From positions 4,402,001 through 4,466,000 of the forward strand of contig NZ_CP047020.1 in NCBI RefSeq assembly GCF_009796285.1: a stretch of DNA of 64,000 bases, given 5' to 3'. A program made the translations under genes and the position numbers. Each line of letters opens with the position of its first letter. The first letter of the stretch is position 1. This document shows positions 893 to 55,273 of this stretch, one piece after another. This stretch comes from Streptomyces broussonetiae. GTDB lineage: Bacteria; Actinomycetota; Actinomycetes; Streptomycetales; Streptomycetaceae. Under the pieces are notes generated by a model, which was not told the DNA's origin, ran no database searches, and was given only the letters and a program-made list of their open reading frames with translations.

Positions 893-2011
893 TCAGACGG
901 CCTGACGGAACCGGGACGTCCGGTGCACGGGATCCGTGTCGATCCTGGGGATCACATGCTCACCGATCAGCCGGATCGTCTGCAGCGTCTCCTCCTTCGG
1001 CACCCCCACCGGCAGCCCGAAGCTCAGCTGGTCCGCCCCGGCCTGCTCCCAGCGCTTGCACTGGCGCAGCACCTCGTCCGGGTCGCCGCAGATCAGCAGC
1101 TCCTCCTCGATGAGCAGCTCCACGAACTCGGGTGTGTACTCGGGCAGCGTCTCGGGCCACACCGGGAAGCCCTCCGGCCGGGGGAAGGTGTCGTGGTACC
1201 GGAAGACCAGCGAGGGCAGGTAGTGCAGCCCGCCGCCCACCGCGATCTCGATCGCCTCGGCGTGGGTCGGCGCGCAGATCGCGGTGGTCGTCACCATCAC
1301 GTTGTCGTTGACGAAGTCCCCGACCGGCTCGGCGTTCACGACCGCCGTCTTGTACTGCTCCAGCACCCACTCCATGTCGGAGACCTTCTGGATGCTGAAG
1401 CCGAGCACGCCGAGCCCCTTCTGCGCGGCCATGGCGTACGACGCGGGCGACCCGGCCGCGTACCACATCGCCGGGTGGGACTTCCCGTACGGCTTCGGCA
1501 GGACCTTGCGCGGCGGCAGCTGCCAGTGCTTGCCCTGGAAGCCCGCGTACTCGTCCTGCAGCCACATCTTGGGGAACTCGGCGATCGTCTCCTCCCAGAT
1601 CTCCTTCGTGTAGTTCATGTCGGTGATGCCGGGCAGGAAGCCGAGGATCTCGTGCGAGCCCGCGCCCCGCCCGCTGCCGAACTCGAAGCGGCCCTCGCTG
1701 AGGTGGTCGAGCATGGCGACCTTCTCGGCCACCTTCACCGGGTGGTTGACCGGCGCGAGGGGGTTGAAGATGCCGGAGCCGAGATGGATCCGCTCCGTCG
1801 CGTGCGCCAGGTAGCCCAGGAACACGTCGTTGGCGGACAGGTGCGAGTACTCCTCCAGGAAGTGGTGCTCGGAGGCCCACGCGTACTTGAAGCCGGACTG
1901 GTCCGCCTGGATGACGTACTCGGTCTCCTCCATCAGCGCCTTGTGCTCGGCCAGCGGGTCGGTCTCGGCACGCTTTCCGACGTATCCCTGTACAAAGAGC
2001 CCGAATTCCAC
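893..2011 (-). CDS. LLM-class (bacterial luciferase-like) flavin-dependent oxidoreductase
   Basis: A 372-residue protein of the luciferase-like TIM-barrel family, starting MEFGLFVQGYVGKRAETDP. Family landmarks are SEHHFLEEYSHLSANDVFLG (about residues 48-67), IHLGSGIFNPLAPVNHPVKV and FEFGSGRGAGSHEILGF, which resemble FMN-dependent monooxygenases rather than the shorter F420 group. Members use FMNH2 and O2 to oxygenate or dehydrogenate small organic substrates. GTG 2011 is chosen because GGGAAGG lies about 9 nt upstream. The operator pair at 2061-2104 sits just upstream. The flavin reductase encoded at 30571 could supply reduced flavin; that link is inferred. Confidence 0.88.
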   Translation of the reverse strand: MEFGLFVQGYVGKRAETDPLAEHKALMEETEYVIQADQSGFKYAWASEHHFLEEYSHLSANDVFLGYLAHATERIHLGSGIFNPLAPVNHPVKVAEKVAMLDHLSEGRFEFGSGRGAGSHEILGFLPGITDMNYTKEIWEETIAEFPKMWLQDEYAGFQGKHWQLPPRKVLPKPYGKSHPAMWYAAGSPASYAMAAQKGLGVLGFSIQKVSDMEWVLEQYKTAVVNAEPVGDFVNDNVMVTTTAICAPTHAEAIEIAVGGGLHYLPSLVFRYHDTFPRPEGFPVWPETLPEYTPEFVELLIEEELLICGDPDEVLRQCKRWEQAGADQLSFGLPVGVPKEETLQTIRLIGEHVIPRIDTDPVHRTSRFRQAV

Positions 2012-2060: not shown

Positions 2061-2104
2061 TCTGACGTAGCGTCAGATTCGTCAATAGATGACGATCCGT
2101 CAGA
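2061..2104. promoter_or_regulatory. Paired palindromic operators (sites A1, A2)
   Basis: A1 is TCTGACGTAGCGTCAGA at 2061-2077, a perfect 7-3-7 palindrome. A2 is ATGACGATCCGTCAG at 2089-2103, with one core mismatch. The centres are 27 bp apart. A1 lies 50 bp upstream of the luciferase-like start at 2011, and A2 overlaps the stop codon of the preceding SDR gene. The same palindrome recurs at eight other promoter regions of this window. The binding protein is not known. Confidence 0.75.
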
Positions 2105-2879: not shown

Positions 2880-3803
2880 TCAGTCCAGCCGTGGTGCGAC
2901 CTCGGCCGCGAACGCGCCGATCTGGTCGATGAGTTCACTGCGGTCCCGGCTGCGGAACCGCACCTGGATCCGGTCCACGCCCATCGCCGCGTACGCCCGC
3001 AGCGACGCGGCGATCTCCTCCGGCGCCCCGGTGAGGGTCCGCCGGCCGACCTCCCAGCCGGCCCGCCCGACGTACAGCGGCTCGGTGATGGCCCCGACGG
3101 TGAACGGCCCCGCCACGCCCCGGTCCGCGCGCAGGCGGCGGATGCGGGCGATCTGCGCGGGCAGCCGGTCGCGCGGATCGCCCTGCGGCAGCCACCCGTC
3201 ACCCTTGAGTGCGGCCCGGCGTACGGCGGGGGGCGAGGAGCCGCCGACCCAGAGCGGGACCCGCCGCTGGGCGGGCCGGGGCCGCTGGCCGAGGCCGGAG
3301 AAGTCGTAGACCTTGCCGTGGTGCTCGGGGAACTCCTCCGGGCCGAGTGCGGCCCGCAGCGCGTCGATCGTCTCGTCCAGAACGGCCCCGCGCCGCTCGA
3401 AGTCCGCGCCGAGCGCGTCGAACTCCTCCCGTACGTGCCCCGCACCCACCCCGAGGACCAGCCGCCCGCCGGAGAGGTGGTCCACGGTGGCGTACTGCTT
3501 GGCGGTGATCAGCGGGTGCCGCAGGCCCACGACGGCCACATGGCTGAGCAGGCGCACCCGCTCGGTGACGGCGGCGAGGTGGGCGAGGGTGGCGACGGGG
3601 TCGTACCAGACCGTGCTCATGGCCGGGGCGAGCCGGCGCGGCACCGCCACGTGGTCGCAGACCGCGAGGTAGTCGAACCCGGCCCGGTCCGCGGCCCGCG
3701 CGACGGCCACCAGGTCCGCCGGCCCGGCCGCGTCCTCCCAGCGCTCGGCGTACAGGGTGCTCTGCGACTGGACGGGCAGCTGGATGCCGTACGCGAGGCT
3801 CAC
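2880..3803 (-). CDS. LLM-class F420-dependent oxidoreductase
   Basis: A luciferase-like TIM-barrel protein of about 307 residues. Motifs include AGFDYLAVCDHVAVPRRLAP, VRLLSHVAVVGLRHPLITAKQ, LVLGVGAGHVREEFDALGA and PLWVGGSSPPAVRRAA, typical of actinobacterial probable-F420-dependent oxidoreductases. These transfer hydride between F420H2 and an organic substrate. I chose GTG 3803: it overlaps the upstream stop as GTGA and has GTGGAGGGGG 6-15 nt before it. A start at 3818 is also open but has a poorer context. It is translationally coupled to the amidohydrolase gene. Similar genes occur in mycobacterial steroid clusters (for example Rv3520c, from memory). Confidence 0.87.
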   Translation of the reverse strand: MSLAYGIQLPVQSQSTLYAERWEDAAGPADLVAVARAADRAGFDYLAVCDHVAVPRRLAPAMSTVWYDPVATLAHLAAVTERVRLLSHVAVVGLRHPLITAKQYATVDHLSGGRLVLGVGAGHVREEFDALGADFERRGAVLDETIDALRAALGPEEFPEHHGKVYDFSGLGQRPRPAQRRVPLWVGGSSPPAVRRAALKGDGWLPQGDPRDRLPAQIARIRRLRADRGVAGPFTVGAITEPLYVGRAGWEVGRRTLTGAPEEIAASLRAYAAMGVDRIQVRFRSRDRSELIDQIGAFAAEVAPRLD

Positions 3804-5032
3804 CTCGGCCCCCTCCACAGCCCGTCCTGCGTCAGCCCCAGCAGCTCGATGGCGTTGCCGCGCACGATCCGCTCGACCACGTCGGCCGGCAGATGCCCCA
3901 TCTGCGCCTCACCGACCTCGCGGGACTTGGGCCAGGTCGAGTCGGAGTGCGGGTAGTCGGTCTCGTACAGGACGTTGCCGACGCCGATGGAGTCGAGGTT
4001 CCTCAGGCCGAAGGCGTCGTCGAAGAAGCAGCCGTAGACGTGCTCGGCGAACAGCTCCGAGGGCGGCCGGAGCACCTTGCCGGCGACCCCGCCCCAGCCC
4101 CGGTTCTCCTCCCAGACCACGTCGGCCCGCTCGAGGATGTACGGGATCCAGCCGATCTGCCCCTCCGCGTACATGACCCTGAGGTTCGAAAAGCGTTCGA
4201 ACTTGCCGCTCATCAGCCAGTCGACCATCGAGAAGCAGCAGTTGGCGAAGGTGATGGTGGAGCCGACGGCGGGCGGGGCGTCGGCGGAGGTGGAGGGCAT
4301 CCTGCTGCTGGAGCCGATGTGCATGGCGACGACCGTGCCGGTCTCGTCGCAGGCCGCGAGGAACGGGTCCCAGTCGTCGGTGTGGACGGACGGCAGGCCG
4401 AGGTGCGGGGGTATCTCGGAGAAGGCGACGGCCCGCACCCCGCGTGCCGCGTTGCGCCGTACCTCCTCGGCGGCCAGGTGGGCGTCCCACAGGGGGATGA
4501 GCGTGAGCGGTATCAGGCGCCCGTGCGCCTCGGGCCCGCACCACTCCTCCACCATCCAGTCGTTGTAGGCGCGCACGCACAGCAGCGCCAGCTCGCGGTC
4601 GCGGGCCTCGGTGAAGGTCTGGCCGCAGAAGCGGGGGAAGGTGGGGAAACAGAGCGCGGACCGGACGTGGTTGACGTCCATGTCGGCGAGCCGGGCGGGG
4701 ACGTCGTACGACCCGGCGCGCATCTGTTCGTAGGTGATGACCTCGAGCTTCACCTCGTCGCGGTCGACCCCGACGGCGGTGTCGAGCCGGGTGAGCGGCC
4801 GGCGCAGGTCCTCGTAGGCCCACCAGTCGCCCAGAGGCCCGTCGGTACTGCCGGGCTCACCCATGACGGGCCTGAAACGTCCGCCGAGGAAGGTCATCTC
4901 CTTCAGCGGGGCGCGCACGATCCGGGGCCCGGTGTCCAGGTACTTCTTCGGCAGCCGCTCCTGCCAGACGGTGGCGGGCTCCACGGTGTGGTCGTCGACG
5001 GAGATGATCAGCGGGAACTGTGGTGTCTCCAT
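3800..5032 (-). CDS. Amidohydrolase-2 family protein (paralogue of the gene at 42473)
   Basis: About 410 residues of the amidohydrolase-2/ACMSD-like TIM-barrel family. Features are IISVDDHTVEP near the N-terminus, FPTFPRFCGQTF, AYNDWMVEEWC, the metal-site segment MHIGSSS, and ETDYPHSDSTWP near the end. Members are metal-dependent hydrolases or decarboxylases, and several work in aromatic or alicyclic acid breakdown. ATG 5032 has GTGAGG just upstream; a GTG three codons earlier (5041) is possible. It is the first gene of an operon with the F420 oxidoreductase and the SDR, 21 bp from an operator. The protein encoded at 42473 shares long identical blocks, so the two are clear paralogues in separate operons. 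Confidence 0.88.
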   Translation of the reverse strand: METPQFPLIISVDDHTVEPATVWQERLPKKYLDTGPRIVRAPLKEMTFLGGRFRPVMGEPGSTDGPLGDWWAYEDLRRPLTRLDTAVGVDRDEVKLEVITYEQMRAGSYDVPARLADMDVNHVRSALCFPTFPRFCGQTFTEARDRELALLCVRAYNDWMVEEWCGPEAHGRLIPLTLIPLWDAHLAAEEVRRNAARGVRAVAFSEIPPHLGLPSVHTDDWDPFLAACDETGTVVAMHIGSSSRMPSTSADAPPAVGSTITFANCCFSMVDWLMSGKFERFSNLRVMYAEGQIGWIPYILERADVVWEENRGWGGVAGKVLRPPSELFAEHVYGCFFDDAFGLRNLDSIGVGNVLYETDYPHSDSTWPKSREVGEAQMGHLPADVVERIVRGNAIELLGLTQDGLWRGPR

Positions 5033-5052: not shown

Positions 5053-5069
5053 TCTGACGGTCCGTCAGC
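5053..5069. promoter_or_regulatory. Palindromic operator (site B)
   Basis: TCTGACGGTCCGTCAGC has a perfect core CTGACG-N3-CGTCAG. It lies 21 bp upstream of the amidohydrolase start at 5032 and 164 bp upstream of the divergent afsR start. It probably controls the leftward operon; an effect on afsR is possible but not shown. Confidence 0.75.
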
Positions 5070-8708: not shown

Positions 8709-10310
8709 TCACCCGGCCCGCAACACCCCTTTCACCACCTTCCCGCCGGCATTGCGCGGCAGCTCCCGCACGAACTCCACCGTCCTCGGCACCTTGTAGT
8801 TCGCCATCTCGCGGCGGGACCAGGCGATCAGGTCGTCCTCCGTCAGTACCGAACCCGGTCTGCGGACCACGAAGGCCCTGCCGACCTCGCCCAGGCGGGG
8901 GTCCGGGACGCCGATCACGGCCACTTCGCGGACGTCCGGGTGGAGGCCCAGCAGCTGCTCTATCTCCGCCGGGTAGGCGTTGAAGCCGCCGACGATGAAC
9001 ATGTCCTTGATGCGGTCCGTGATGCGCAGGTTGCCCGCCTCGTCCAGGACGCCCACGTCGCCCGTGCGCAGCCAGCCGTCCGCCGAGACCGCCTCGGAGG
9101 TGGCCCTGGGGTCGTCGTAGTAGCCGCGCATGACGTGGAAGCCGCGGACCAGTACCTCGCCCGGCACACCCGGCGGCAACAAGGTGCCCGTCGCATCCTG
9201 CACCCTCACCTCCGTCCCCGGGATCGCCCGGCCGGAGGTGGACGCGATGACCGACGGGGCATCCGCGCGCCGGCACATCGTGACGACCCCGCTCGCCTCC
9301 GACAGGCCGTACGCCGTGAGGACCGTCTCCACGCCCAGTTCCCCGCGCAGGCGTTCCACCAGGCGCAGCGGCACGACCGCCGCCCCCGTCACCACCAGGC
9401 GCAGCGCCGACAGGTCGTGACTGTCGCGGGCCGGGTGGTCCAGGAGCTGCTGGTGCAGGGTCGGCGGACCCGGCAGCACCGACACCCGCTCCGCCGCGAT
9501 GTTCGCGAGCGCCGTCTCCACGTTGAACACCGGCTGCGGGATCATCGCCGCGCCGCGCATCAGGCAGGCGATCACCCCGGCCTTGTAGCCGAAGGTGTGG
9601 AAGAAGGGGTTGACGATCAAGTAGCGGTCCGTCGGCCGCAGGCCTGCCAGGTCCGACCAGATCTCGTACGCCCGCAGCGTCTGCTCGTGCGTGATCATCG
9701 CGCCCTTGGGGCGGCCGGTCGTCCCCGACGTGTAGATGATGTCCGACACGTCCGTTCCGGCCAACTGGTCCGACCGAGCGCGGACTTCGGTGGCGCACAC
9801 CGCCTCCCCCGCCGCCAGGAAGTCCTTCCAGGCGCGGAAGTCCGACGGCGCGTCGTCCGACAGGACCACCACCTCCGCCAGCCCCGGCAGGCCGGGCAGC
9901 GGGCCCCGGGCGCCGTCCGCCGGTGCGCCCTCGCCCGCCGCCCTGCGCAGGGAGGCCACGTACGACGTGCCCAGGAACGTGCCCGTCACGAACAGCAGCC
10001 GCGCCCCGCTGCGGCGCAGGACGTCCGCCGCCTCCGTGCCCTTGAAGCGGGTGTTGAGCGGCACCAGGACCGCACCCGCCGTCACCGCGCCCAGGGCCGA
10101 GACGATCCAGTCCAGGGAGTTGGGGGCCCAGACCGCCACCCGGTCACCGGCCCGCACCCCGCTCGCCAGGCAGGCCGCCGCCGCCCGCTCGATGCGGGCG
10201 CCCAGTTCGGCGTACGTGATCCTGGTGCGCCCCTCGACCACGGCCTCCGCGTCCGCGTACCTCTCGGCCGACCACCGCACCAGCTCCGGGATGGTGTTCC
10301 ACTCGCCCAC
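8709..10310 (-). CDS. FadD3-like acyl-CoA ligase (class I adenylate-forming)
   Basis: A 533-residue AMP-forming acyl-CoA synthetase. It has the P-loop-like YTSGTTGRPKG at about 193-203, YGLSEASG, the GWLRTGDVG loop and a C-terminal Lys in NAGGKVVK. Segments such as NPFFHTFGYKAGVIACLMRG, SVLPGPPTLHQQLLDHPAR and ITDRIKDMFIVGGFNAYPAEIEQ closely resemble mycobacterial FadD3, which activates the steroid ring-C/D propionate HIP. An alicyclic carboxylate substrate is therefore likely but not proved. GTG 10310 is preferred because GGGGAGGGG precedes it; the frame is open to 10349. It is divergent from a lipid-transfer operon with two operators between them. Confidence 0.87.
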   Translation of the reverse strand: MGEWNTIPELVRWSAERYADAEAVVEGRTRITYAELGARIERAAAACLASGVRAGDRVAVWAPNSLDWIVSALGAVTAGAVLVPLNTRFKGTEAADVLRRSGARLLFVTGTFLGTSYVASLRRAAGEGAPADGARGPLPGLPGLAEVVVLSDDAPSDFRAWKDFLAAGEAVCATEVRARSDQLAGTDVSDIIYTSGTTGRPKGAMITHEQTLRAYEIWSDLAGLRPTDRYLIVNPFFHTFGYKAGVIACLMRGAAMIPQPVFNVETALANIAAERVSVLPGPPTLHQQLLDHPARDSHDLSALRLVVTGAAVVPLRLVERLRGELGVETVLTAYGLSEASGVVTMCRRADAPSVIASTSGRAIPGTEVRVQDATGTLLPPGVPGEVLVRGFHVMRGYYDDPRATSEAVSADGWLRTGDVGVLDEAGNLRITDRIKDMFIVGGFNAYPAEIEQLLGLHPDVREVAVIGVPDPRLGEVGRAFVVRRPGSVLTEDDLIAWSRREMANYKVPRTVEFVRELPRNAGGKVVKGVLRAG

Positions 10311-10353: not shown

Positions 10354-10395
10354 CTGACTGACCGTCAGATTAGCTGTAATCTGACGCACTGTCAG
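10354..10395. promoter_or_regulatory. Paired palindromic operators (sites C1, C2) in a divergent promoter
   Basis: C1 is CTGACTGACCGTCAG (10354-10368) and C2 is CTGACGCACTGTCAG (10381-10395); each has one core mismatch. The centres are 27 bp apart, the same spacing as pairs A and I. C1 is 44 bp from the leftward ligase start and C2 is 21 bp from the rightward start at 10416, so each site may serve one promoter. Confidence 0.7.
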
Positions 10396-15686: not shown

Positions 15687-16481
15687 TCAGCGTCGCAGAA
15701 GTGCGAACGACGCCCCCTGATTGTCGGTGACGACGGCCACATGCCCGTACGACGTCTCGAAGGGCGGCGCCTGCACCCGGCCGCCGAGGCGCTGGACGGC
15801 CCCGAGGGCGTCGTCCAGGTCGGCGACCCGGAAGTGCGCGAGGAAGTGCGGGGGCATCTCGGCCGGGAAGACCTCGGTGACGGGAGCCCGGCCGAAGTCG
15901 GGCCGGGCTCCCGCACCGAACAGGGCGTCATGGAAGAGACCGCCGTAGAAGGCGTTGGCGGCGGCCGTGTCGCGCGTGTACAGCTGGGCCCAGACGAAGC
16001 TGCCGGGCTCGTGCCGCCGCCCGAAGCCGCGGTGGCTGCCCGGCTGCCACAGCCCGAACACCGCGCCCTCGGGGTCGGCAGCGAGGGCGGCCACCCCGAG
16101 GTCGCCCACCAGGAACGGGGCCATGACCAGCTGCCCGCCGGCCGCGGTGATCCGCCGGCCGAGGGCCACGGCGTCCGGGGTGGCGAAGGAGACCGTCCAG
16201 ACGGTGGGCATACGGCCGTCCAGCTTGGGGGCCAGCGAGGCGACCGGCTCCCCCGCCAGCCGGGCCCACACCGAGGAGCCGTACGCGTCCTCGAAGGTCC
16301 ACCCGAAAAGCTCACCGTAGAACCGCTTGCCCGCCTCGACGTCGGCGAGCTGGGCGTCCACCCAGCAGGGCACGCCCTCCCCGTATGCCTCTTCCGTCTC
16401 TCCCGCCTCTACCACTTCCCCCTCCAGCACCTCTTCCGCCTCTTCCGCCTCTTCGTTCCCGGATGCCCTGTTTTCGGCCAT
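15687..16481 (-). CDS. VOC (glyoxalase/bleomycin-resistance) family protein, two domains
   Basis: A 264-residue protein with an acidic N-terminal tail (runs of EEAEEAEE, residues 9-35) and two vicinal-oxygen-chelate domains. The first contains PCWVDAQLADVEAGKRFYG and the second FVWAQLYTRDTAAANAFYGG. This pattern is typical of actinobacterial CFP32-like proteins, whose ligands are mostly unknown. It lies between afsK and the divergent TetR gene. The upstream region 16482-16603 is shared with the TetR gene. Confidence 0.85.
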   Translation of the reverse strand: MAENRASGNEEAEEAEEVLEGEVVEAGETEEAYGEGVPCWVDAQLADVEAGKRFYGELFGWTFEDAYGSSVWARLAGEPVASLAPKLDGRMPTVWTVSFATPDAVALGRRITAAGGQLVMAPFLVGDLGVAALAADPEGAVFGLWQPGSHRGFGRRHEPGSFVWAQLYTRDTAAANAFYGGLFHDALFGAGARPDFGRAPVTEVFPAEMPPHFLAHFRVADLDDALGAVQRLGGRVQAPPFETSYGHVAVVTDNQGASFALLRR

Positions 16482-16603
16482 GTCGCCAAAGTAACCGGGC
16501 CGCGCGCACCCCGCAGACCTGGCACACCACCCTCAGAGCACCCGTGCACCCCATTTGCAGTCGGCCGAATCGCGCTCCGATCACCCCTCGGTAAGCTGAC
16601 GGC

Positions 16604-17251
16604 ATGACAGGACAAGTGCGTACCGTCGACGGCCGCGTGGCCGGCCGGCGTGGGCAGGCGACCCGGCAGAAGCTGCTCGACTGCCTCAGTGAGATGCTCA
16701 GCTCCTCCCCGTACCGGGATGTCAAGGTCATCGATGTCGCCCGGAAGGCGGGCACTTCGCCCGCGACCTTCTATCAGTACTTCCCCGACGTCGAAGGCGC
16801 CGTCCTGGAGATCGCCGAGCAAATGGCGACCGAGGGCGCCGGATTGACCGAACTGCTCGAAGGGCGGTCCTGGGCCGGGAAGACCGGATGGCAGACGGCA
16901 CAGGAACTCGTGGACGGGTTCCTGGAGTTCTGGCGCCGCAACGACGCCATCCTCAGAGTCGTCGACCTCGGCGCGGCCGAGGGGGACAAACGGTTCTACA
17001 AGATCCGGATGAAGATCCTGAACTCGGTGAACAACTCCCTCGCGGATTCCATCGCCGAGCTGCAGGCCAAGGGCAGAGTCGACAAGGACGTGAACCCGGC
17101 GGCGGTGGCCGGCTCACTGGTCGCGATGCTCGCGGCGGTGGCGGCCCACCAGAAGGGCTTCTCGTCCTGGGGCGTGAAGCAGGCCGAACTCAGGCCGAAC
17201 CTGGCGCTGCTGGTGCATCTGGGTGTGACCGGCAAGAAGCCGACCAGGTAA
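16604..17251 (+). CDS. TetR-family transcriptional regulator (candidate regulator of the operator regulon)
   Basis: A 215-residue TetR protein. The helix-turn-helix spans about residues 17-65 (LLDCLSEMLSSSPYRDVKVI, then GTSPATFYQYFPDVEGAVLE), followed by a helical ligand domain with conserved WRRNDAILRVVDLGAAEGD and RMKILNSVNNSLAD. TetR proteins bind 15-20 bp palindromes overlapping promoters and release on ligand binding. A weak half-conserved copy of the window's operator, CTGACG-GCA-TGACAG (10 of 12 core bases), overlaps this gene's start codon at 16596-16610. It is the only TetR gene in the window and lies between regulated operons, so it is the best local candidate, but this is inference. 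Confidence 0.9.
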   Translation: MTGQVRTVDGRVAGRRGQATRQKLLDCLSEMLSSSPYRDVKVIDVARKAGTSPATFYQYFPDVEGAVLEIAEQMATEGAGLTELLEGRSWAGKTGWQTAQELVDGFLEFWRRNDAILRVVDLGAAEGDKRFYKIRMKILNSVNNSLADSIAELQAKGRVDKDVNPAAVAGSLVAMLAAVAAHQKGFSSWGVKQAELRPNLALLVHLGVTGKKPTR

Positions 17252-18527: not shown

Positions 18528-19007
18528 TCAGGGGGCCGCCGTGAGCCGGAACAGCCGGATCTGCCTCGTCACCCGCTCCTGGTACGCGGCGTACGGCGGC
18601 CAGAACGCCAGGACCGCCCGCCAGACCGCCGCCCGTTCCTCCCCCGTGAGCAACCGGGCCGTGACCGTGATGTCCCGGCCCTTCCAGCTGATCGACGCCT
18701 CGGGACGGGCCAGCAGGTTGTGGGTCCAGGCCGGGTGCCCCGTCCGGCCGAAGTTGGAGCCCACGAGGATCCAGGTCCGGCCGTCCTCCTCGGGCATGCA
18801 CGCGAGCGGGGTGCGGCGGGGCAGGCCACTGCGGGCGCCCGTGGCCGTGAGGATCACCCCCGGCAGCATCCGGGCGCTGAGCAGCACCTTGCCCCGGGTG
18901 AGGCGATGGACCGTCCGGTCGAGCGCCGGGACGACGTGCGGGGCGACCCTGGCGAAGGTCCGGGTGGACGAGACCCGCTGGACGAGGCGGACACCGAGGG
19001 CGGCCAT
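18528..19007 (-). CDS. Nitroreductase-family deazaflavin (F420)-dependent oxidoreductase (DDN-like)
   Basis: A 159-residue split-barrel protein of the Ddn/F420-dependent quinone-reductase group. Typical segments are VILTATGARSGLPRRTPLAC, WILVGSNFGRTGHPAWTHNL, LARPEASISWKGRDITVTA and FWPPYAAYQERVTRQIRLFR. Members use F420H2 to reduce quinones or other organic acceptors. ATG 19007 overlaps the acyl-CoA dehydrogenase stop by one base (TGATG), so the two are translationally coupled in an operon headed by operator D. Confidence 0.9.
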   Translation of the reverse strand: MAALGVRLVQRVSSTRTFARVAPHVVPALDRTVHRLTRGKVLLSARMLPGVILTATGARSGLPRRTPLACMPEEDGRTWILVGSNFGRTGHPAWTHNLLARPEASISWKGRDITVTARLLTGEERAAVWRAVLAFWPPYAAYQERVTRQIRLFRLTAAP

Positions 19008-20200
19008 CAGACGGCCACCTCCCCGTGCGCGAAGAGCCCGGAGGTCTCGGCGGCCCGGTCCCGCAGCCGGTGCGGCGGCCCGAACAGCAGCTCGTCGCCG
19101 GCCGCCCGTTTGAAGTAGAGGTGGGCGTCGTGCTCCCAGGTGAAGCCGATCCCGCCGTGCAGCTGGATGCCCTCGGCGGCGGCCGTCCGCAGCGCCTCCA
19201 GGGCCTGTGCGAGCGCCAGCCCGCCCACGTGCTCGCCGTGCGCCGTCGCCCAGGCGGCGTAGTAGGCGGCGGACCGGGCCGCCTGCAGCGCCACGTACAC
19301 GTCGGCCAGCCGGTGCTTGACCGCCTGGAAGGAGCCGACGGGCCGCCCGAACTGCTCGCGCTGTCCGACGTACTCCACGGTCCGCTCCAGCACCCGGCCC
19401 GCCGCCCCGACCGCCTCGCAGGCGAGCACGGTGGCGACGCCGTCCCCGAGGGCGGCGAGGGCCGCGAGGACGGCCCGCTCGTCCGCCTCCTCCTCGCCCA
19501 GCAACTCGGCGCGCACGTTCCGCAGTTGGATCCGCGCCTGGCTGCGGGTCGGATCGAGGGCGGTCTGCCGGACGCACAGCAGGCCGGACGCCTGCGCCGG
19601 GACCAGGAACAGGCGCGTGCGGGACCGGGCGAACCCGCCGGTGTGCGCGGCGACGAGCAGCAGGCCCGCGCTGTGCCCGTCCAGCACCTGGTCGGCCTGT
19701 CCGTACAGCAGCCAGCCGTCCGCCGCGCGCCTGGCCTGGACGCCTCCGGCGCGCCCGCCACCGGCGGCGTACCGCTCGTTCCCGCCGGTCAGGGCGAGCG
19801 CGCCGGCGAGGGCGGGCCCCGCGACGGCGAGGGCGGCGGTGAGGCCGCCGGCGGCCAGCCGGGGCAGCAGTTCGGCGCACTGGGCCCGCGTCCCCAGGGC
19901 GAGGACCAGCGGGGCGGCTAGGACGGAGGTGGCCAGCAGCGGGGAGGGGGCGAGGGCCCGGCCGGTCTCCTCGCAGGCGAGGGCCAGTTCGGTGACCGAG
20001 CAGCCGACACCGCCGTACCGCTCGGGCAGGGCGAGCCCCGGCAGGCCGAGCTGGTCGGCGAGGGCCGACCACAGCTGGGGGTCGTATCCGGCCGGGTTGT
20101 CGACGGCGGTCCGCAGCTCCGGCGAGCCGCAGCGCTTGTGCAGCAGTTCGCGCAGGGTGCGGCGGATCCCGTCCTGCTCGGCGGTGAGGCGCGTGTCCAT
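19007..20200 (-). CDS. Acyl-CoA dehydrogenase family protein (FadE beta-type)
   Basis: A 397-residue acyl-CoA dehydrogenase-fold protein. It has ALPERYGGVGCSVTELALACEETGR in the N-terminal helical domain, REQFGRPVGSFQAVKHRLADVYV in the C-terminal domain, and GGIGFTWEHDAHLYFKRA near the end. The canonical FAD-proximal xGSD block is absent in the middle domain. This is usual for one subunit of the alpha2-beta2 heterotetrameric dehydrogenases that oxidise bulky steroid CoA thioesters in Actinobacteria. Its partner could be the protein encoded at 36006 or 41340 (inferred). Operator D is 26 bp upstream, shared with the divergent lipid-transfer gene. Confidence 0.88.
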   Translation of the reverse strand: MDTRLTAEQDGIRRTLRELLHKRCGSPELRTAVDNPAGYDPQLWSALADQLGLPGLALPERYGGVGCSVTELALACEETGRALAPSPLLATSVLAAPLVLALGTRAQCAELLPRLAAGGLTAALAVAGPALAGALALTGGNERYAAGGGRAGGVQARRAADGWLLYGQADQVLDGHSAGLLLVAAHTGGFARSRTRLFLVPAQASGLLCVRQTALDPTRSQARIQLRNVRAELLGEEEADERAVLAALAALGDGVATVLACEAVGAAGRVLERTVEYVGQREQFGRPVGSFQAVKHRLADVYVALQAARSAAYYAAWATAHGEHVGGLALAQALEALRTAAAEGIQLHGGIGFTWEHDAHLYFKRAAGDELLFGPPHRLRDRAAETSGLFAHGEVAV

Positions 20201-20225: not shown

Positions 20226-20242
20226 TCTGACGGGGCGTCATA
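20226..20242. promoter_or_regulatory. Palindromic operator (site D) in a divergent promoter
   Basis: TCTGACGGGGCGTCATA has one core mismatch (CGTCAT). It lies 26 bp from the leftward start at 20200 and 44 bp from the rightward start at 20286, so one site could control both operons. Confidence 0.68.
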
Positions 20243-21977: not shown

Positions 21978-22643
21978 ATGGAAACCGATCTGCCGGCGCT
22001 GCTGAGGTCGCTGCGGGTGTGGGACGCGGCCACGACGACGCTGCCCGCCTTCGACCCGGACACCGCGCCGCCGACGCCCGTGCTCCTGTTCACGGACTGG
22101 TTCGCCGAGGCGGTGGCGGCCGGGCAGCCGGAGCCGCACACGATGTCGCTGGCGACCGTGGACGAGGCGGGCGAGCCCGACGTACGGATCGTGATGCTGC
22201 ACGGCGCCGATCCGGACGGCTGGTCGTTCGCCACGCACCGCACCAGCCGCAAGGGCCGCGCCCTGGCCGCGCACCCGTACGCGGCCCTGGCCTTCTACTG
22301 GCCGGTGCTGGGCCGCCAGGTACGGGTGCGCGGGCCGGTGACCGCGGCGCCGTCGAGCGAGAGCCAGGCGGATCTGCACGCACGCTCGACGGGCGCGCTG
22401 GCCGCGGCGCTCACGGGCCGGCAGAGCGAGGAACTCTCCTCGGTGGACGAACTGCGCAGGGCGTCGCAGGCAGCCTGGGACCGCGCCCGGTCGAACCCGG
22501 CCGAGCCGTCCTCGACCTGGACCCTGTACCGGCTGCGCCCCGAGACGGTGGAGTTCTTCCAGGGCGACCCGGACCGCCGGCACGTACGGCTGGAGTACCG
22601 GAGCACGCAGTTCGGCTGGAGCCGGACGCTGCTGTGGCCCTAG
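21978..22643 (+). CDS. Pyridoxamine 5'-phosphate oxidase family protein (PdxH paralogue)
   Basis: A 221-residue protein with full PNP-oxidase architecture: PDVRIVMLHGADPDGWSFATH in the FMN-binding barrel, TSRKGRALAAHPYAALAFYWPVLGRQVRVRG, and a C-terminal TVEFFQGDPDRRHVRLEY. The canonical pdxH of the window is at 61161, and this copy is more divergent. It may oxidise another amine or phosphate. Its TAG stop (22641-22643) is part of the CTAG target into which the IS701-type element inserted, so the coding sequence is intact but its downstream region was displaced by 1.4 kb. Confidence 0.86.
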   Translation: METDLPALLRSLRVWDAATTTLPAFDPDTAPPTPVLLFTDWFAEAVAAGQPEPHTMSLATVDEAGEPDVRIVMLHGADPDGWSFATHRTSRKGRALAAHPYAALAFYWPVLGRQVRVRGPVTAAPSSESQADLHARSTGALAAALTGRQSEELSSVDELRRASQAAWDRARSNPAEPSSTWTLYRLRPETVEFFQGDPDRRHVRLEYRSTQFGWSRTLLWP

Positions 22644-24041
22644 TACTGCAACGGTGCTTGCGGTGACTGATGGCCAGGTCGGTCGTTGGTGTGGTTATGG
22701 GTGGGGACCTTGCTGATGTCAGGTTGTGGGCGGGTGAACTGGAAGCCGTACATGAGCGGTTCGTGCACCGTTTCAGCAGGTCGGAGCCGCGGGAGTCGGC
22801 ACTGGCTTATATGCGGGGCCTGATCGCTCCGCTGCAGCGCAAGAACGGCTGGACGCTGGCTGAGGAAGCCGGCCACGCAGGCCCGGACCGCATCCACCGG
22901 ATGCTGAACCGGATCGAGTGGGACGCCGATGAGGTGCTCGACGACGTGCGCCAGTACGTCATCGACCACCTTGGCGACCCGAACGCCGTCCTGGTCGTGG
23001 ACGACACGGGCTTCTTGAAGAAGGGAACGCGGTCGGCCGGGGTGCAGCGGCAGTACTCCGGCACCGCCGGGCGGACGGAGAACTGCCAGGTAGGCGTCTT
23101 CCTCGCCTATGCAACCGACCGCGGGCGGACACTGATCGACCGGCGTCTGTATCTGCCCACCTCCTGGACCGATGACCGCGAAAGGTGCCGCAGGGCCGGC
23201 ATCGACGATGAGGTCACCTTCGAGACGAAGGTGGCCATGGCCAAGGCGATGGTCCGCCGTGCCATCGCGGATAAGATTCCGTTCCGGTGGGTGACCGCGG
23301 ATGCCGCCTACGGCTTTTCCAAGGGCTGGCGATCCGAGTTGGAACGGGCGGACGTCTTCCACGTCATGGCCACCACCCGGCACGACACCGTGGTCACTCG
23401 CTGGGCGATCGACCATCCCGTCCACGACCTGTTCAACGGCCTGGCCCGGCAGAAATGGAAGCGCCGTTCCTGCGGCAATGGGGCTCACGGCCTGCGGATC
23501 TACGACTGGGCCCGCGTCGAGGTGCGGCCCTGGCACCGACCCGATCGCCGCCACTGGGTGATCGCCCGCCGCAGCGTCGCCCGCCCTCAGGAGATCTCCT
23601 ACTACATCGCCTACTGCCCCGCCGAGACCACGCTGGATGACCTGATCCGTGTCGCGGGCAGCAGGTGGGCCATCGAGGAATGCTTCCAGAGCGCCAAGCA
23701 GGAATGCGGCCTGGACGACTACCAGGTCCGCCGCTACCCCGGCTGGCACCGACACATGACCCTGGCCATGGCCGCTCACGCCTGCCTGACCGTCCTGCGA
23801 GCCCGCGAGCTGGATGCCGGGAAAGCAGAAACGGATCCTCCCAGCTCATCCACCTCAGCCTCGCCGAAATACGACGTCTGATCACCCGCCTCACCGACCG
23901 CCGGCCCACCCCCGTCGAGCACATCCTGCACTGGTCGACCTGGCGCCGACGACGACAACACCAGGCCCGCACCAGCCACTACAAACGACGCGGACACAGC
24001 CCCTGAACTGGCCATCAGTCACGGCAAGCACCGTTGCAGTA
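22644..24041 (+). mobile_element. IS701-family insertion sequence, 1398 bp, with 4-bp CTAG target duplication
   Basis: Terminal inverted repeats of 34 bp (22644-22677 and 24008-24041) match at 33 positions, outer end TACTGCAACGGTGCTTGC. They are flanked by CTAG on both sides (22640-22643 and 24042-24045), the preferred target of IS701-type elements. The single transposase gene faces right. The near-identical repeats and intact target duplication suggest recent insertion. The transposase appears frameshifted near its 3' end, so the copy may be inactive. Confidence 0.92.
22697..23881 (+). CDS. IS701-family DDE transposase, frameshifted near the 3' end
   Basis: A DDE transposase of about 394 residues from ATG 22697 (MGGDLADVRLWAGELE matches where the family usually starts; 22670 is also open but lies in the terminal repeat). 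Catalytic regions are LVVDDTGFLKKGTRSAGVQR, WVTADAAYGFSKGWR and WAIEECFQSAKQECGLDDYQ. After about 23820 the frame ends in PSSSTSASPKYDV. A different frame (to 24006) continues with LIHLSLAEIRRLITRL and HILHWSTWRRRRQH, the normal IS701 C-terminus. One base has therefore been lost or gained near 23820-23845, removing about 55 residues. Confidence 0.85.
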   Translation: MGGDLADVRLWAGELEAVHERFVHRFSRSEPRESALAYMRGLIAPLQRKNGWTLAEEAGHAGPDRIHRMLNRIEWDADEVLDDVRQYVIDHLGDPNAVLVVDDTGFLKKGTRSAGVQRQYSGTAGRTENCQVGVFLAYATDRGRTLIDRRLYLPTSWTDDRERCRRAGIDDEVTFETKVAMAKAMVRRAIADKIPFRWVTADAAYGFSKGWRSELERADVFHVMATTRHDTVVTRWAIDHPVHDLFNGLARQKWKRRSCGNGAHGLRIYDWARVEVRPWHRPDRRHWVIARRSVARPQEISYYIAYCPAETTLDDLIRVAGSRWAIEECFQSAKQECGLDDYQVRRYPGWHRHMTLAMAAHACLTVLRARELDAGKAETDPPSSSTSASPKYDV

Positions 24042-24941: not shown

Positions 24942-25337
24942 TCAGTCGCCCGGCTCGAACACCGGTTTTCCGTCCCGGTACGCCACCCGCAGCGCCATCC
25001 CGGCCCTCAGGTCGCCGTCCGCGCAGTGCACGATCTCCGTCATCATCCGCGGTCCCTCCGCCAGGTCGACCACGGCGGCGACGTACGGCGTGCGCTCACC
25101 GAAGGGCGGCAGGTCGTTGCGGTGGACCGTGGACCAGGTGTAGAGCACGGCCCGGCCGCTCGCCTCCTCCCAGGTCACGTCCTCGCTCCAGCAGTACGGG
25201 CAGAACTCGCGGGGGTAGTGGTGGGCCCGGCCGCAGGCGGCGCAGCGGCGGATCAGCAGCCGGCCGCCGGCCGCCGCCTCCCAGTAGGGCCGCGTGAAGG
25301 CGTCGGGCTCGGGGACGTCGTGGCGTGCCGCGTTCAT
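24942..25337 (-). CDS. Zn-ribbon/OB-fold protein (DUF35/ChsH2-like)
   Basis: A 131-residue DUF35 protein. It has a rubredoxin-like zinc ribbon CAACGRAHHYPREFCPYC (about residues 35-52), then the OB-fold acyl-CoA-binding domain with LYTWSTVHRNDLPPFGERTP and YVAAVVDLAEGPRMM. DUF35 proteins pair with thiolase-fold Ltp proteins. Here the likely partner is encoded at 20286, now separated from it by the IS element. ATG 25337 has CAGGGGTGG upstream. It lies 25 bp after the DoxX stop in the same operon. Confidence 0.88.
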   Translation of the reverse strand: MNAARHDVPEPDAFTRPYWEAAAGGRLLIRRCAACGRAHHYPREFCPYCWSEDVTWEEASGRAVLYTWSTVHRNDLPPFGERTPYVAAVVDLAEGPRMMTEIVHCADGDLRAGMALRVAYRDGKPVFEPGD

Positions 25338-25362
25338 CGGGACCACCCCTGCAGCTCCCCCA

Positions 25363-25812
25363 TCAGAACCACCCGAGCCAGGCGTCGAGCGACCAGGTCT
25401 GCCAGGACATGCCGAAGAAGGCGACCACACAGATCAGCGCCATCATCGAGTTCTGACCCTGTTCCGCCCAGTCGTGGATCATCAGGACGAAGTAGAGCGC
25501 GTTCAGCAGCAGGCCGCCGACCAGCGCCACCGGGGTCAGGAAGCCGAGGATCAGGCCGAGGCCGAGGGAGAGTTCGGCGTAGGCGACGACGTACGCCATC
25601 AGCCTCGGGCGCGGTTTCACCATCGCCTCGAAGCCGGACCGTACCGGCGCCCAGCGGTGTTTCTCCGCGATTCCCGCCGCCCACGCGATGCCGCTGCCCC
25701 GCTCGAACCAGGCCTTCTTGTCCTTGTGCCGCCAGCTCTCCAGCCACCACACCCCGAGGCCGATCCGCAGCACCGCCAGCCAGTGGGGGCCGTCCATCCC
25801 TATGGAGTCCAT
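25363..25812 (-). CDS. DoxX-family integral membrane protein
   Basis: A 149-residue membrane protein with about four hydrophobic helices and DoxX-type features: HWLAVLRIGLGVWWLESW at the start, PRLMAYVVAYAELSLGLGLI, TPVALVGGLLLNALYFVL and the closing WSLDAWLGWF. DoxX proteins associate with redox enzymes such as quinol oxidases. First gene of a leftward operon with DUF35 and GNAT genes. ATG 25812 would start only 4 bp from operator E, implying a leaderless mRNA. The internal ATG 25797 (MDGPHW) would give the roughly 20-bp spacing seen at the other operators. Confidence 0.85.
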   Translation of the reverse strand: MDSIGMDGPHWLAVLRIGLGVWWLESWRHKDKKAWFERGSGIAWAAGIAEKHRWAPVRSGFEAMVKPRPRLMAYVVAYAELSLGLGLILGFLTPVALVGGLLLNALYFVLMIHDWAEQGQNSMMALICVVAFFGMSWQTWSLDAWLGWF

Positions 25813-25815
25813 GAA

Positions 25816-25832
25816 TCTGACGGTACGTCAGA
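25816..25832. promoter_or_regulatory. Palindromic operator (site E)
   Basis: TCTGACGGTACGTCAGA is a perfect 7-3-7 palindrome, extending to 8-3-8 with the flanking A and T. It is the best copy in the window and lies 4 bp (or 19 bp, if translation starts at 25797) upstream of the DoxX start. Confidence 0.78.
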
Positions 25833-27422: not shown

Positions 27423-27461
27423 CTGACATTGCGTCAGTTCAGTAATCTGACACTGCGTCAG
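27423..27461. promoter_or_regulatory. Paired palindromic operators (sites F1, F2)
   Basis: F1 is CTGACATTGCGTCAG (27423-27437) and F2 is CTGACACTGCGTCAG (27447-27461). They share 13 of 15 bases, differ from the consensus core by the same single base, and have centres 24 bp apart. F2 is 37 bp upstream of the ligase start at 27498. Confidence 0.7.
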
Positions 27462-30538: not shown

Positions 30539-30555
30539 TCTGACGTACCGTCAGC
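30539..30555. promoter_or_regulatory. Palindromic operator (site G)
   Basis: TCTGACGTACCGTCAGC has a perfect core. It lies 16 bp upstream of the flavin reductase ATG at 30571 and after the crotonase stop, giving the flavin reductase its own promoter. Confidence 0.75.
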
Positions 30556-37250: not shown

Positions 37251-38165
37251 CTACCGGGCGTTGGGCCGCTCACCGGCCCGCGCCGCCGATTCCATCGCCG
37301 CAAGCCGGGACAGCATGGGCATCGGGTCGATCCCCACCGATCCCGGCAGGACCGCGGCGATCCGCTCCGGCGTCCAGGCCCCCTCGGCGTAGGCCGAGCG
37401 CAGTTCGCGCGGCTGCGCCCACACCGCGATCTTCGGCCCGGCCACGGTGTACACCTGCCCGGTGATCCCCTGCTCCGCCGCCCCGTCGGACAGCAGGTAC
37501 ACCACCAGCGCGGCCACGTCCTCGGGCTCGCCGATCTCGGTCAGCTCCGTGGGAACGTTGGCGGACATCCGCGTACGGGCCACCGGCGCCACCGCGTTCG
37601 CCGTCACGCCGTACTTGTTCAGGCCGAGCGCGGCGCTGCGCACGAGCGAGATGATGCCGCCCTTCGCCGCGCTGTAGTTGGCCTGGGACACCGAACCCTG
37701 GTGGTTGCCGCTGGTGAAGCCGATCAGCGTGCCGGAGCGCTGCCCCCGCATGACCGCCGAGGCCGCCCGGAAGACGGTGAAAGTGCCCTTGAGGTGGGTG
37801 GCGACCACCGGATCCCACTCCTCCTCGGCCATGTTGAACAGCATCCGCTCACGCAGGATCCCGGCCACGCACACGACCCCGTCGACACGGCCGTACGTCG
37901 CCACGGCCGTGTCCACGACCCGCTGCCCGCCCGCCATCGTGGAGACGTCGTCGGCGACCGCGACCGCCTCGCCGCCCGCCGCCCCGATCTCCTTGACGAC
38001 CGCCTCGGCGACCTCGCTCGTGGGAGAGGTCCCGTCCGTGGAGACCCCGTAGTCGTTGACGACGACCTTCGCGCCCTCGGCCGCCGCCGCGAGCGCGACC
38101 GCGCGCCCGATGCCCCGTCCGGCACCCGTCACGGCGATCACCTTGCCTGCCAAGAAGTTCCCCAC
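37251..38165 (-). CDS. SDR family oxidoreductase (hydroxyacyl-CoA/17-beta-HSD type)
   Basis: A 304-residue SDR. Cofactor motif TGAGRGIGRAV (about 14-24), KVVVNDYGVSTDGTSP (the long beta-2 loop of MFE-2/HSD4-type dehydrogenases), and catalytic NYSAAKGG near 165. A C-terminal extension of about 50 residues ends in GIDPMPMLSRLAAMESAARA. The VNDYGV...AGG pattern resembles (3R)-hydroxyacyl-CoA dehydrogenases of peroxisomal bifunctional type, used in side-chain beta-oxidation. First gene of the operon, 22 bp from operator H, divergent from the cyclase gene. Confidence 0.9.
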   Translation of the reverse strand: MGNFLAGKVIAVTGAGRGIGRAVALAAAAEGAKVVVNDYGVSTDGTSPTSEVAEAVVKEIGAAGGEAVAVADDVSTMAGGQRVVDTAVATYGRVDGVVCVAGILRERMLFNMAEEEWDPVVATHLKGTFTVFRAASAVMRGQRSGTLIGFTSGNHQGSVSQANYSAAKGGIISLVRSAALGLNKYGVTANAVAPVARTRMSANVPTELTEIGEPEDVAALVVYLLSDGAAEQGITGQVYTVAGPKIAVWAQPRELRSAYAEGAWTPERIAAVLPGSVGIDPMPMLSRLAAMESAARAGERPNAR

Positions 38166-38186: not shown

Positions 38187-38203
38187 TCTGACGGTCCGTT
38201 AGA
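38187..38203. promoter_or_regulatory. Palindromic operator (site H) in a divergent promoter
   Basis: TCTGACGGTCCGTTAGA has one core mismatch (CGTTAG). It is 22 bp from the leftward SDR start (38165) and 49 bp from the rightward cyclase start (38252). Confidence 0.7.
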
Positions 38204-41343: not shown

Positions 41344-42473
41344 CTCCCCCTGGGCAGGCCGAGGACGCGCTCGGCCACGATGGTGCGCTGGATCTGCGAG
41401 GTGCCGGCGGCGATCGTGTACGACAGGGACGACAGGCGGTCGAGAACCCACGGCCGGTCCAGGTCGAGGCAGTCCGGGCCGAGGACGTCCGCCGCCGCGT
41501 CGTACAGCTCCTGGCGGGCGTGCGAGTAGCGGAGCTTGAACACCGAGGCACCCGTGCCCGGCACTCCCCCGCCAGCCTCCGCGACGCTGACGTTCCACTG
41601 GGTCAGCCGCCACAGCGCCCGGAACTCCCCCTCCAGCCGGCCGAGGCGGCGGCGCAGCACGGGGTCGTCCCAGCGGCCGTTCTCCCGTGCCGCGCGGGCG
41701 AGTTCGCGCAGCACCCGGCGGCAGGCCACCACCTCGCCGACGAAGGCCGTACCGCGCTCGAAGGACAGGGTCACCATGGTCACGCGCCAGCCGTCGTTCT
41801 CCGCTCCGACCCGGTTGGCCACCGGCACCCGGACCTCGTCCAGGAAGACTTCCGCGAACTCGGCGGACCCGGCGAGGGTGCGCAGGGGCCGGACGGTGAT
41901 GCCCGGCGCGTCCATGGGCATGGCCAGCCAGGTGATGCCCCGGTGCCGGGGGGCGTCCGGGTCGGTGCGCACGAGCAGTTCGCACCAGTCGGCGACCTCG
42001 GCGTGCGAAGTCCAGATCTTGGACCCGCTCACCACGTAGTCGTCGCCGTCCCTGCGCGCACGCGTGCGCAGGGCGGCGAGGTCGGAGCCGGCGTCCGGTT
42101 CGCTGAACCCCTGGCACCACACCTCCTCCCCGCGCAGGACCGGCGGCAGCCAGCGCGCCCGCTGCTCGGCCGTGCCCTCGGCGGCGATGGTCGGACCGGC
42201 GTGCAGCAGGCCCACGAAGTTCGCCCCCACATAGGGCGCCCCCGCGCGCTCGGTCTCCTCCAGGAAGATCAGGCGGGTGGTCGGGGAGGCGTCCCAGTGG
42301 ACGTCGGCGTACCCGGCGTCGTGGAGCATGCGCTGCCAGCCGAGGTCGTAGGCGCGGCGGCCGGGCCAGTCGTCGGGCGAGGGCCGGTCCGGCAGCGTGG
42401 GCAGCACCTTGGCGAGCCACTCCCGCAGCCGGGCCCGGAAGTCCTCTTCCGCCGCCGTGTACGAGAGGTCCAC
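41340..42473 (-). CDS. Acyl-CoA dehydrogenase (FadE alpha-type)
   Basis: A 377-residue acyl-CoA dehydrogenase with WCQGFSEPDAGSDLAALRTR, GSKIWTSHAEVADWCELLVR, MPMDAPGITVRPLRTLAG and the terminal AAGTSQIQRTIVAERVLGLP. It closely resembles the protein encoded at 36006 in layout and motifs. Start GTG 42473 overlaps the amidohydrolase TAG by one base. It is coupled to the shorter dehydrogenase at 40471 by an ATGA overlap, so the pair very probably forms one heteromeric enzyme, as in FadE26-FadE27-type steroid side-chain dehydrogenases. Confidence 0.89.
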   Translation of the reverse strand: MDLSYTAAEEDFRARLREWLAKVLPTLPDRPSPDDWPGRRAYDLGWQRMLHDAGYADVHWDASPTTRLIFLEETERAGAPYVGANFVGLLHAGPTIAAEGTAEQRARWLPPVLRGEEVWCQGFSEPDAGSDLAALRTRARRDGDDYVVSGSKIWTSHAEVADWCELLVRTDPDAPRHRGITWLAMPMDAPGITVRPLRTLAGSAEFAEVFLDEVRVPVANRVGAENDGWRVTMVTLSFERGTAFVGEVVACRRVLRELARAARENGRWDDPVLRRRLGRLEGEFRALWRLTQWNVSVAEAGGGVPGTGASVFKLRYSHARQELYDAAADVLGPDCLDLDRPWVLDRLSSLSYTIAAGTSQIQRTIVAERVLGLPRGR

Positions 42474-43666
42474 TAGCGGTCCAGGTCCAGGCCGAGCATG
42501 CGGATGGCGTTGCCCCGCATCAGCTTGTACACGGTCTCGTCGTCGAGCCCCTTCACATGGTCGAGCGCGACCTCCTTGGTGTGCGGGAAGGTCGAGTCGA
42601 CGTGCGGGTAGTCGGTCTCGAAGGTGGCGTTGTCGCGGCCGACGACGTCGATCGAGGCCACGCCGTGCCGGTCGCGGAAGAAGCAGCAGAAGATCTGCCG
42701 GTAGTAGTACGTCGAGGGCGGCTCCGGGATCAGGTCCCTGACCCCGCCCCAGGCCCGGTGCTCCTCCCACACGTCGTCGGCGCGCTCCAGGGCGTACGGG
42801 ATCCAGCCCATCTGCCCCTCGGAGTAGGCGAGGGTGAGGTGGGGAAAGCGCACCAGGACCCCGCTGAAGAGGTAGTCCATCATCGAGGCCATCGCGTTGT
42901 TGAAGCTGAGCGAGGCCTGGACGGCGGGCGGGGCGTCCGGGGAGGCGGCCGGCATCTGCGAGCTGGACCCGATGTGCATGTTGACGACCGTGCCGGTCTC
43001 CTGGCAGACGGCGAAGAACGGGTCCCAGTGGCCGGAGTGGATGGACGGCAGACCGAGGTGGGTGGGGATCTCGGAGAAGGTCACGGCCCGCACCCCGCGT
43101 TCGGCGTTGCGCCGGATCTCGGCGACGGCCAGGTCCACGTCCCACAGCGGGATCAGGCACAGCGGAATGAGGCGTCCGCCGCTGCCCCCGCACCACTCCT
43201 CCACCATCCAGTCGTTGTAGGCGCGCACGCAGGCGAGGGCGACCTCCTTGTCGTGGGCCTCGGCGAAGGTCTGCCCGCAAAAGCGCGGGAAGGTCGGGAA
43301 GCAGAGGCTGGCCTCGACGTGGTTGAGATCCATGTCGGCTAGGCGCGCCACGGGATCCCAGCAGCCGCGCCGCATCTGCTCCCTGGTGATGCCCTCCAGG
43401 GTCATCTCGTCCCGGTCGAAGCCGACGGCGGCGATGTTGCGCTTGTACGGGAACTTCAGGTCCTCGTAGATCCACCAGTCCGTCGGCTGGCCGGCCGGGT
43501 CCATGGTGATCTGGTACTTCCCGCCGACGTAGGCGAGTTCCCCGATCCCCGCGGTCAGCGGCTTGGGTCCCCGGTCCCGGTACTTGGCCGGCAGCCAGGT
43601 CTCGAAGAGATGGGCGGGCTCGATCACATGGTCGTCGACGCTGATGATGCGGGGCAGTTCGGTCAT
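42473..43666 (-). CDS. Amidohydrolase-2 family protein (paralogue of the gene at 3800)
   Basis: A 397-residue amidohydrolase-2/ACMSD-like protein starting MTELPRIISVDDHVIEPAHL. It shares with the paralogue LADMD-NHV, LCFPTFPRFCGQTF, AYNDWMVEEWCG, NMHIGSSSQMP and ETDYPHVDSTFP. Conserved Asp/His residues at both ends suggest a working metal site. First gene of a leftward operon with two acyl-CoA dehydrogenases and 39 bp from operator I1. Decarboxylation or hydrolysis of a cyclic acid is plausible but unproved. Confidence 0.89.
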   Translation of the reverse strand: MTELPRIISVDDHVIEPAHLFETWLPAKYRDRGPKPLTAGIGELAYVGGKYQITMDPAGQPTDWWIYEDLKFPYKRNIAAVGFDRDEMTLEGITREQMRRGCWDPVARLADMDLNHVEASLCFPTFPRFCGQTFAEAHDKEVALACVRAYNDWMVEEWCGGSGGRLIPLCLIPLWDVDLAVAEIRRNAERGVRAVTFSEIPTHLGLPSIHSGHWDPFFAVCQETGTVVNMHIGSSSQMPAASPDAPPAVQASLSFNNAMASMMDYLFSGVLVRFPHLTLAYSEGQMGWIPYALERADDVWEEHRAWGGVRDLIPEPPSTYYYRQIFCCFFRDRHGVASIDVVGRDNATFETDYPHVDSTFPHTKEVALDHVKGLDDETVYKLMRGNAIRMLGLDLDR

Positions 43667-43704: not shown

Positions 43705-43747
43705 TCTGATGACCCGTCAGATATCATGGCACCTGACGGTTCGTCAG
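43705..43747. promoter_or_regulatory. Paired palindromic operators (sites I1, I2) in a divergent promoter
   Basis: I1 is TCTGATGACCCGTCAGA (43705-43721, one core mismatch) and I2 is CTGACGGTTCGTCAG (43733-43747, perfect core). The centres are 27 bp apart, as in pairs A and C. I1 lies 39 bp from the leftward amidohydrolase start and I2 23 bp from the rightward ligase start. Confidence 0.75.
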
Positions 43748-55062: not shown

Positions 55063-55273
55063 ACTGCCCAGCTGACATACCGTCAATGCACGACATGTGC
55101 GGTTTGCCGGGGTAAAGGCGGGTGCCAGCCTCTCCCTGGCTACCCACCCCACGCCCTGCTTCCTCCCGCGCGCCCCCGGACGTGCACCCATGCGCCCCGA
55201 CTGCGGAATCGATGCTCCACCCCCGCGCGCGGTACAGCCGTAACTACAGGTGGGTGCGGGAGTTGAGAGGAGC

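Follow-up and report, generated by a model that had tools for sequence, protein, structure and literature searches.

The TetR-family gene in the 64,000-nucleotide stretch of the Streptomyces broussonetiae genome analysed here (the window; G000:C1:4402001-4466000 of 9.74 Mb) quite likely encodes the repressor of a catabolic regulon marked by the palindrome CTGACG-N3-CGTCAG and, via a weaker copy of this palindrome, of itself, as predicted from the motif, its placement and conservation, and its association with the TetR orthologue. In the mechanism that we propose, a TetR dimer would bind the approximately 17-bp palindrome TCTGACG-N3-CGTCAGA and repress CoA-dependent catabolic operons around and beyond the window, with acyl-CoA ligases, acyl-CoA dehydrogenases, thiolase/ChsH2-type pairs, flavin-dependent oxidoreductases, and amidohydrolases as predicted targets. 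It would also repress its own gene via the weaker copy, which spans the start codon and shares bases with a -10-like box. By analogy with EthR, FadR, and KstR-type repressors, the operator would be freed by a pathway intermediate, which is probably either an acyl-CoA or some hydrophobic precursor. A near-universal Streptomyces regulator gains in this way a specific candidate operator and directly testable target operons, and a catabolic gene set is tied together, parts of which recur with the same sites in distant actinobacteria. A description of the operator was not found among the matches listed in a literature search of open-licence papers.

The gene (16604..17251, plus strand) has an ATG start and encodes 215 amino acids according to the ORF list; its product matches TetR_N at 27 bits (cut-off of 24) and TetR_C_38 (PF19352) at 9.3e-74. 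This is the sole TetR_N match of the window, as the first-pass annotation had claimed, but being the only TetR is weak as evidence, since the whole genome contains 146 such matches. The AlphaFold2 model (mean pLDDT of 91.8) has the all-helical TetR-type fold; the closest solved fold is EthR, with a TM score of 0.73 to 0.79 and an identity of 17 to 21% across the EthR entries, and FadR structures are likewise among the fold matches. In the recognition helix, T51, S52, and A54 to F60 are invariant across 22 aligned TetR proteins, three of them from Streptomyces. The gene had also been placed beside afsK; it does lie near an afsK-like kinase gene, but a glyoxalase-family ORF (15687-16481) is located between the two.

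Thirteen palindromes with no more than one mismatch are present in the window (Table 1), compared to 0.53 expected, and none of 100 shuffles reached this number. The genome contains 21 perfect cores, five of them in the window; the reversed control gave none. The genes downstream of the strong sites are of the type of CoA-dependent catabolism; besides the CoA ligases, thiolase-like proteins, ChsH2-like partners, flavin reductase, and cyclase-family protein, they encode acyl-CoA dehydrogenases, SDRs, luciferase-like oxidoreductases, and amidohydrolases, and more strong sites of the same genome adjoin similar genes outside the window. The two sites before the gene of the ATP-grasp CoA ligase are spaced by 24 bp (27423/27447), as are those at L086:11724/11748 and L102:982/1006; three of the five cluster-bearing genomes have this site pair. 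Such exact 24-bp pairs suggest cooperative binding. A DDE-type transposase gene (Pfam DDE_5) with a lower GC3 of 0.86 is located at 22811-23881, within the catabolic cluster.

Table 1. Palindromes and promoter-like element in the window, with the genes next to them
Feature	Position	Strand	Context
Two palindromes	2062..2103		Upstream of luciferase-like monooxygenase gene 893-2011 (-)
Palindrome	5054..5068		Upstream of amidohydrolase gene 3800-5032 (-); on the other side afsR (5278, +)
Two palindromes	10354..10395		Between AMP-forming (FadD3-like) ligase 8709-10310 (-) and thiolase/lipid-transfer protein (10416, +)
-10-like TAAGCT	16592..16597	+	Six bases 5' of TetR ATG
Putative self-site CTGACGGCATGACAG	16596..16610		Overlaps TetR ATG at 16604; 10/12 core
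Palindrome	20227..20241		Between acyl-CoA dehydrogenase 19007-20200 (-) and thiolase-like gene (20286, +)
Palindrome	25817..25831		Upstream of 25363-25797 (-, without Pfam match) and ChsH2-like 24942-25346 (-)
Two palindromes	27423..27461		Upstream of ATP-grasp-domain CoA ligase gene (27498, +)
Palindrome	30540..30554		Upstream of flavin reductase gene (30625, +)
Palindrome	38188..38202		Between SDR 37251-38165 (-) and cyclase-family gene (38252, +)
Two palindromes	43706..43747		Between amidohydrolase 42473-43666 (-) and AMP-forming ligase (43770, +)

The palindrome that had been described over the TetR start codon was confirmed as CTGACGGCATGACAG, which differs at two positions from the core CTGACGNNNCGTCAG and at one from CTGACRNNNYGTCAG. 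With a matrix built from the 13 strong window sites, these score 20.8 to 35.2 bits, the TetR site 11.8 bits, and the site at 55072 10.9 bits. The caution of the first-pass annotation that the match is weak and might be due to chance is justified by the counts: 18 sites with up to two mismatches (8.5 expected) include the 13 strong ones, and the five with exactly two mismatches (16596, 22410, 50356, 51692, and 55072) are within the chance level, so that counting alone cannot support a self-site. The site at 55072, cited before as a second 10-of-12 match, is hence present but has company at 22410, 50356, and 51692; elsewhere, its best core was 8/12 in G115 and 9/12 in G044, the two genomes compared.

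Conservation is more informative about the TetR start element. All 72 named Streptomyces TetR loci found by protein homology (among the best 80 of 530 loci) have it intact, as do 79 of the 81 genus loci in a second homology-found set. The two exceptions, L162 (G133, with seven motif matches) and L121 (G120, with none), have a spacer of four instead of three bases, which should break the dyad of the putative self-site; they represent natural variants of the element. Codons 2 and 3 of the TetR gene are ACA and GGA in all 72 named loci and codon 4 is CAA in 69 of them, and since these triplets make up just 2%, 5%, and 3% of their synonymous sets among the window genes, selection seems to act on the DNA sequence itself. 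The -10-like box is found in 53 of 53 rows, which were gathered with a pattern containing part of the element and are therefore circular for the element columns; given how close it is to the ATG, the transcript may be leaderless. The site over the start codon is probably a low-affinity operator of TetR itself.

Alternatively, the match at the start codon might be a by-product of the -10 box and the first codons of a leaderless gene, and TetR may still run the regulon in this case. The low score of the start match would be in line with such an origin, and the conserved block indeed extends past the palindrome and persists in strains from which the neighbouring operons are missing; moreover, G133 and G120 retain the -10-like box and the first codons while the spacer gains one base. 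We nevertheless regard this explanation as rather unlikely, because other families have different start sequences and yet carry the palindrome at the same gene, and because the orthologue of Actinomadura xylanilytica, which is followed by four strong sites, has CTGACGGTATGCCAG across its ATG, in register with the Streptomyces element.

Within Streptomyces, the TetR was found in 149 of 150 genomes, and matches to TCTGACGNNNCGTCAGA with at most one mismatch number four or fewer in 38 genomes, five or six in two, and at least seven in 110. The one genome lacking a TetR match (G139) has 13 motif matches and an assembly of about 1,010 contigs. Four further Streptomyces genomes (G013, G093, G096, and G115) retain the cluster together with its sites, and the TetR under study is the only one that the stretches obtained from them all share, that of G115 excluding 20 kb inside its cluster. 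G044 has 21 scattered motif matches, yet lacks the cluster within the 80 kb surrounding its TetR, and G036 has a single match, yet keeps several cluster genes with degenerate sites. Among 20 site-poor genomes, 18 showed no catabolic genes of the cluster near the TetR (five of the stretches were shorter than 12 kb), the exceptions being G036 and G088, which keeps one such gene; the TetR hence does not depend on the neighbouring operons. Strains without them mostly keep the start element. According to the first-pass annotation, occurrence of the TetR in strains lacking the operons would argue against its role, and such strains do exist within the genus as far as the vicinity of the TetR is concerned. 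We consider this argument too strict, because a repressor may persist after its target genes have been lost, and most of these strains have retained the self-site element. Overall, presence and absence within the genus are not decisive, since the TetR is nearly constant and motif counts are a noisy proxy for the operons.

It was the comparison at class level that turned the verdict in favour of the TetR as regulator. Among 296 genomes of the class, 28 from the own genus and 268 from others, the perfect TCTGACGNNNCGTCAGA is present in 18 of the 268 and the TetR orthologue (E<=1e-30; identity of 41 to 57%) in 21 of the 268. Motif and orthologue go together, with a perfect motif in 14/21 genomes with the orthologue versus 4/247 without it (Fisher, 4e-15). 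Collapsed to families, the motif occurs in 4/6 with and 2/39 without the orthologue (P of 0.0014), which is the safer figure, since related genomes are not independent. At least three genomes (G160, G161, and G184) have both on the same contig, about 5 to 6 kb apart. Of the seven orthologue-bearing genomes without a perfect motif, the five of family f18 (G203, G244, G254, G273, and G383) contain weaker sites of at least 18 bits in the TetR locus, and the remaining two (G170 and G179) have no site of at least 18 bits in the orthologue locus. Together with the nearly unchanged recognition helix and the sole TetR shared by the cluster-bearing stretches, this association supports the predicted role as local regulator.

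Autoregulation, which had been assumed by analogy, fared less uniformly. Near the start, a core of at least 10/12 is present in 17/21 orthologues outside the genus versus 0/11 other TetR genes in the same loci, with the interval behind the 17/21 count, -150 to +30 of the [VAS]D[GK]R codons (the called start in 4/21), having been chosen after the sequences had been seen. Control genes, for which -120 to +60 of the called start was used, reach this threshold in 14% of 552 cases, and many of their loci were chosen for having sites. The orthologues of G170, G179, G273, and G339 have no core of at least 10/12 near the start, and that of G339 has a 12.9-bit match farther upstream. The start site is present in Parafrankia and absent from Pseudofrankia, and a MAG of the Acidimicrobiales has a strong site directly behind the TetR gene and none at its start; the named loci L212, L213, L214, and L216 are not independent of G262, G184, G281, and G383. 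In family f13 (L183 and L196-L199), a second TetR gene, without the palindrome at its start, is located about 1 kb from the orthologue in five of five genomes.

Once the hypothesis had been formulated, 16 further loci were retrieved from 14 genomes whose families are not represented in the class sample. Thirteen of them contain a site of at least 18 bits with the window-trained matrix, and the total of 21 matches contrasts with 0.33 on average and 4 at most for 200 permuted palindromes, a control that does not reflect the site density of those genomes. The helix sequence SPATFYQYF is kept in most of the 16 orthologues. Strong sites are absent from the loci of the first G696 copy, of G451, and of the first G530 copy; the helix is changed in the first two of these (MSPAAF and CSPATF, respectively) and usual in the third, and the second G696 copy has a site despite a changed helix. 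A core of at least 10/12 near the start was found in just three of the 16 loci (G560, G705, and G643), which indicates that self-regulation is less general than the association of motif and TetR. Given this proportion and the two spacer exceptions, the self-regulatory part of the proposed mechanism is less certain than the regulon part.

The palindrome might also be bound by another regulator, from the TetR or a different family, with the present TetR gene being a mere target. A target gene would equally show a site at its start, and the 146 TetR_N matches of the genome offer many candidates. Such a regulator is improbable, since the stretches fetched from site-rich clusters share no other TetR and the motif tracks this orthologue across the class; moreover, the start element is mostly kept where the neighbouring operons are missing, and the start site is lacking from all 11 other TetR genes near sites mentioned above and present at one of eight in a further set. 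This set stems from 20 loci of S. broussonetiae and three other genomes (L124-L143), in which seven TetR genes reach at most 9/12 near the start; the eighth, a KstR-type gene of G137, reaches 11/12 at a site within the gene, 58 bp from its called start, which speaks for another regulator. A by-eye comparison of places revealed no other autoregulated TetR in the S. broussonetiae genome, the sites with two mismatches being those among the matches listed (to about 3.4 Mb). The G137 match and the two spacer exceptions make the TetR of the window slightly less likely, and the rivals more likely, as an explanation.

The KstR-type TetR of S. broussonetiae itself (G000:C1:3156940) is a highly improbable regulator of the palindrome and was rejected, with the match in G137 as a reservation: two motif matches, at 3151783 and 3159652, are no more than about 5 kb away from the gene and its G137 counterpart likewise has motif matches nearby, but its own promoter carries the KstR-box-like TAGAACAAGTTTCA and G071, with 14 motif matches, has no match to it at E<=1e-20. 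Three of these 14 are located on one contig, and one is the variant TCTGACGGTCCGTTAGA, which is also found at 38188 of the window. The KstR-like TetR (L045:10940-11590) has matches at E<=1e-20 in 140 of the 150 genomes of the genus.

KstR- and FadR-type acyl-CoA-responsive TetR repressors regulate CoA-dependent catabolism. The KstR box is TnnAACnnGTTnnA, and TAGAACAAGTTTCA presumably fits it. The sites of the window differ from this operator in being of the CTGACG-N3-CGTCAG rather than the AACnnGTT type, and a separate KstR-type TetR exists, both of which argue against KstR orthology. EthR of Mycobacterium tuberculosis controls an adjacent monooxygenase gene. The TetR of the window differs in this respect, because the neighbouring flavoprotein gene, considered as a target where the operons are missing and dismissed, has no upstream site of at least 11/12 in any of 15 site-poor loci. 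In the cluster-bearing genomes G093 and G096, a perfect core is located upstream of the flavoprotein gene and shared with a divergent gene.

SAV3818 of Streptomyces avermitilis is, as we assume, the orthologue of the window TetR. Two papers refer to it as a TetR gene connected with antibiotic production. SCO4421 of Streptomyces coelicolor resembles the present gene in TetR family and position by afsK; according to the available part of PMC3878966, it is up-regulated in development, gives a signal in spore chains, has a lower expression in a whiA mutant, and can be deleted without a phenotype. It was studied there as a sporulation gene, and that part of the paper gives no operator or regulon. 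If SCO4421 is the orthologue, as its position and the near-universality of the gene suggest, the regulator is expressed in spores. Tentatively, and with considerable doubt, the TetR may be spread over several classes of Actinomycetota with a near-invariant operator and a large catabolic regulon, and have a sporulation role in Streptomyces; the retention of the TetR and mostly of its start element in strains without the operons would correspond to a second job under this sporulation-programme reading.

The strong site at 5054 has the amidohydrolase gene on one side and afsR, which encodes a global regulator, on the other, so that afsR might be touched by the repressor as well. G096 contains a pair of adjacent afsR-like genes (L098:10926-16439).
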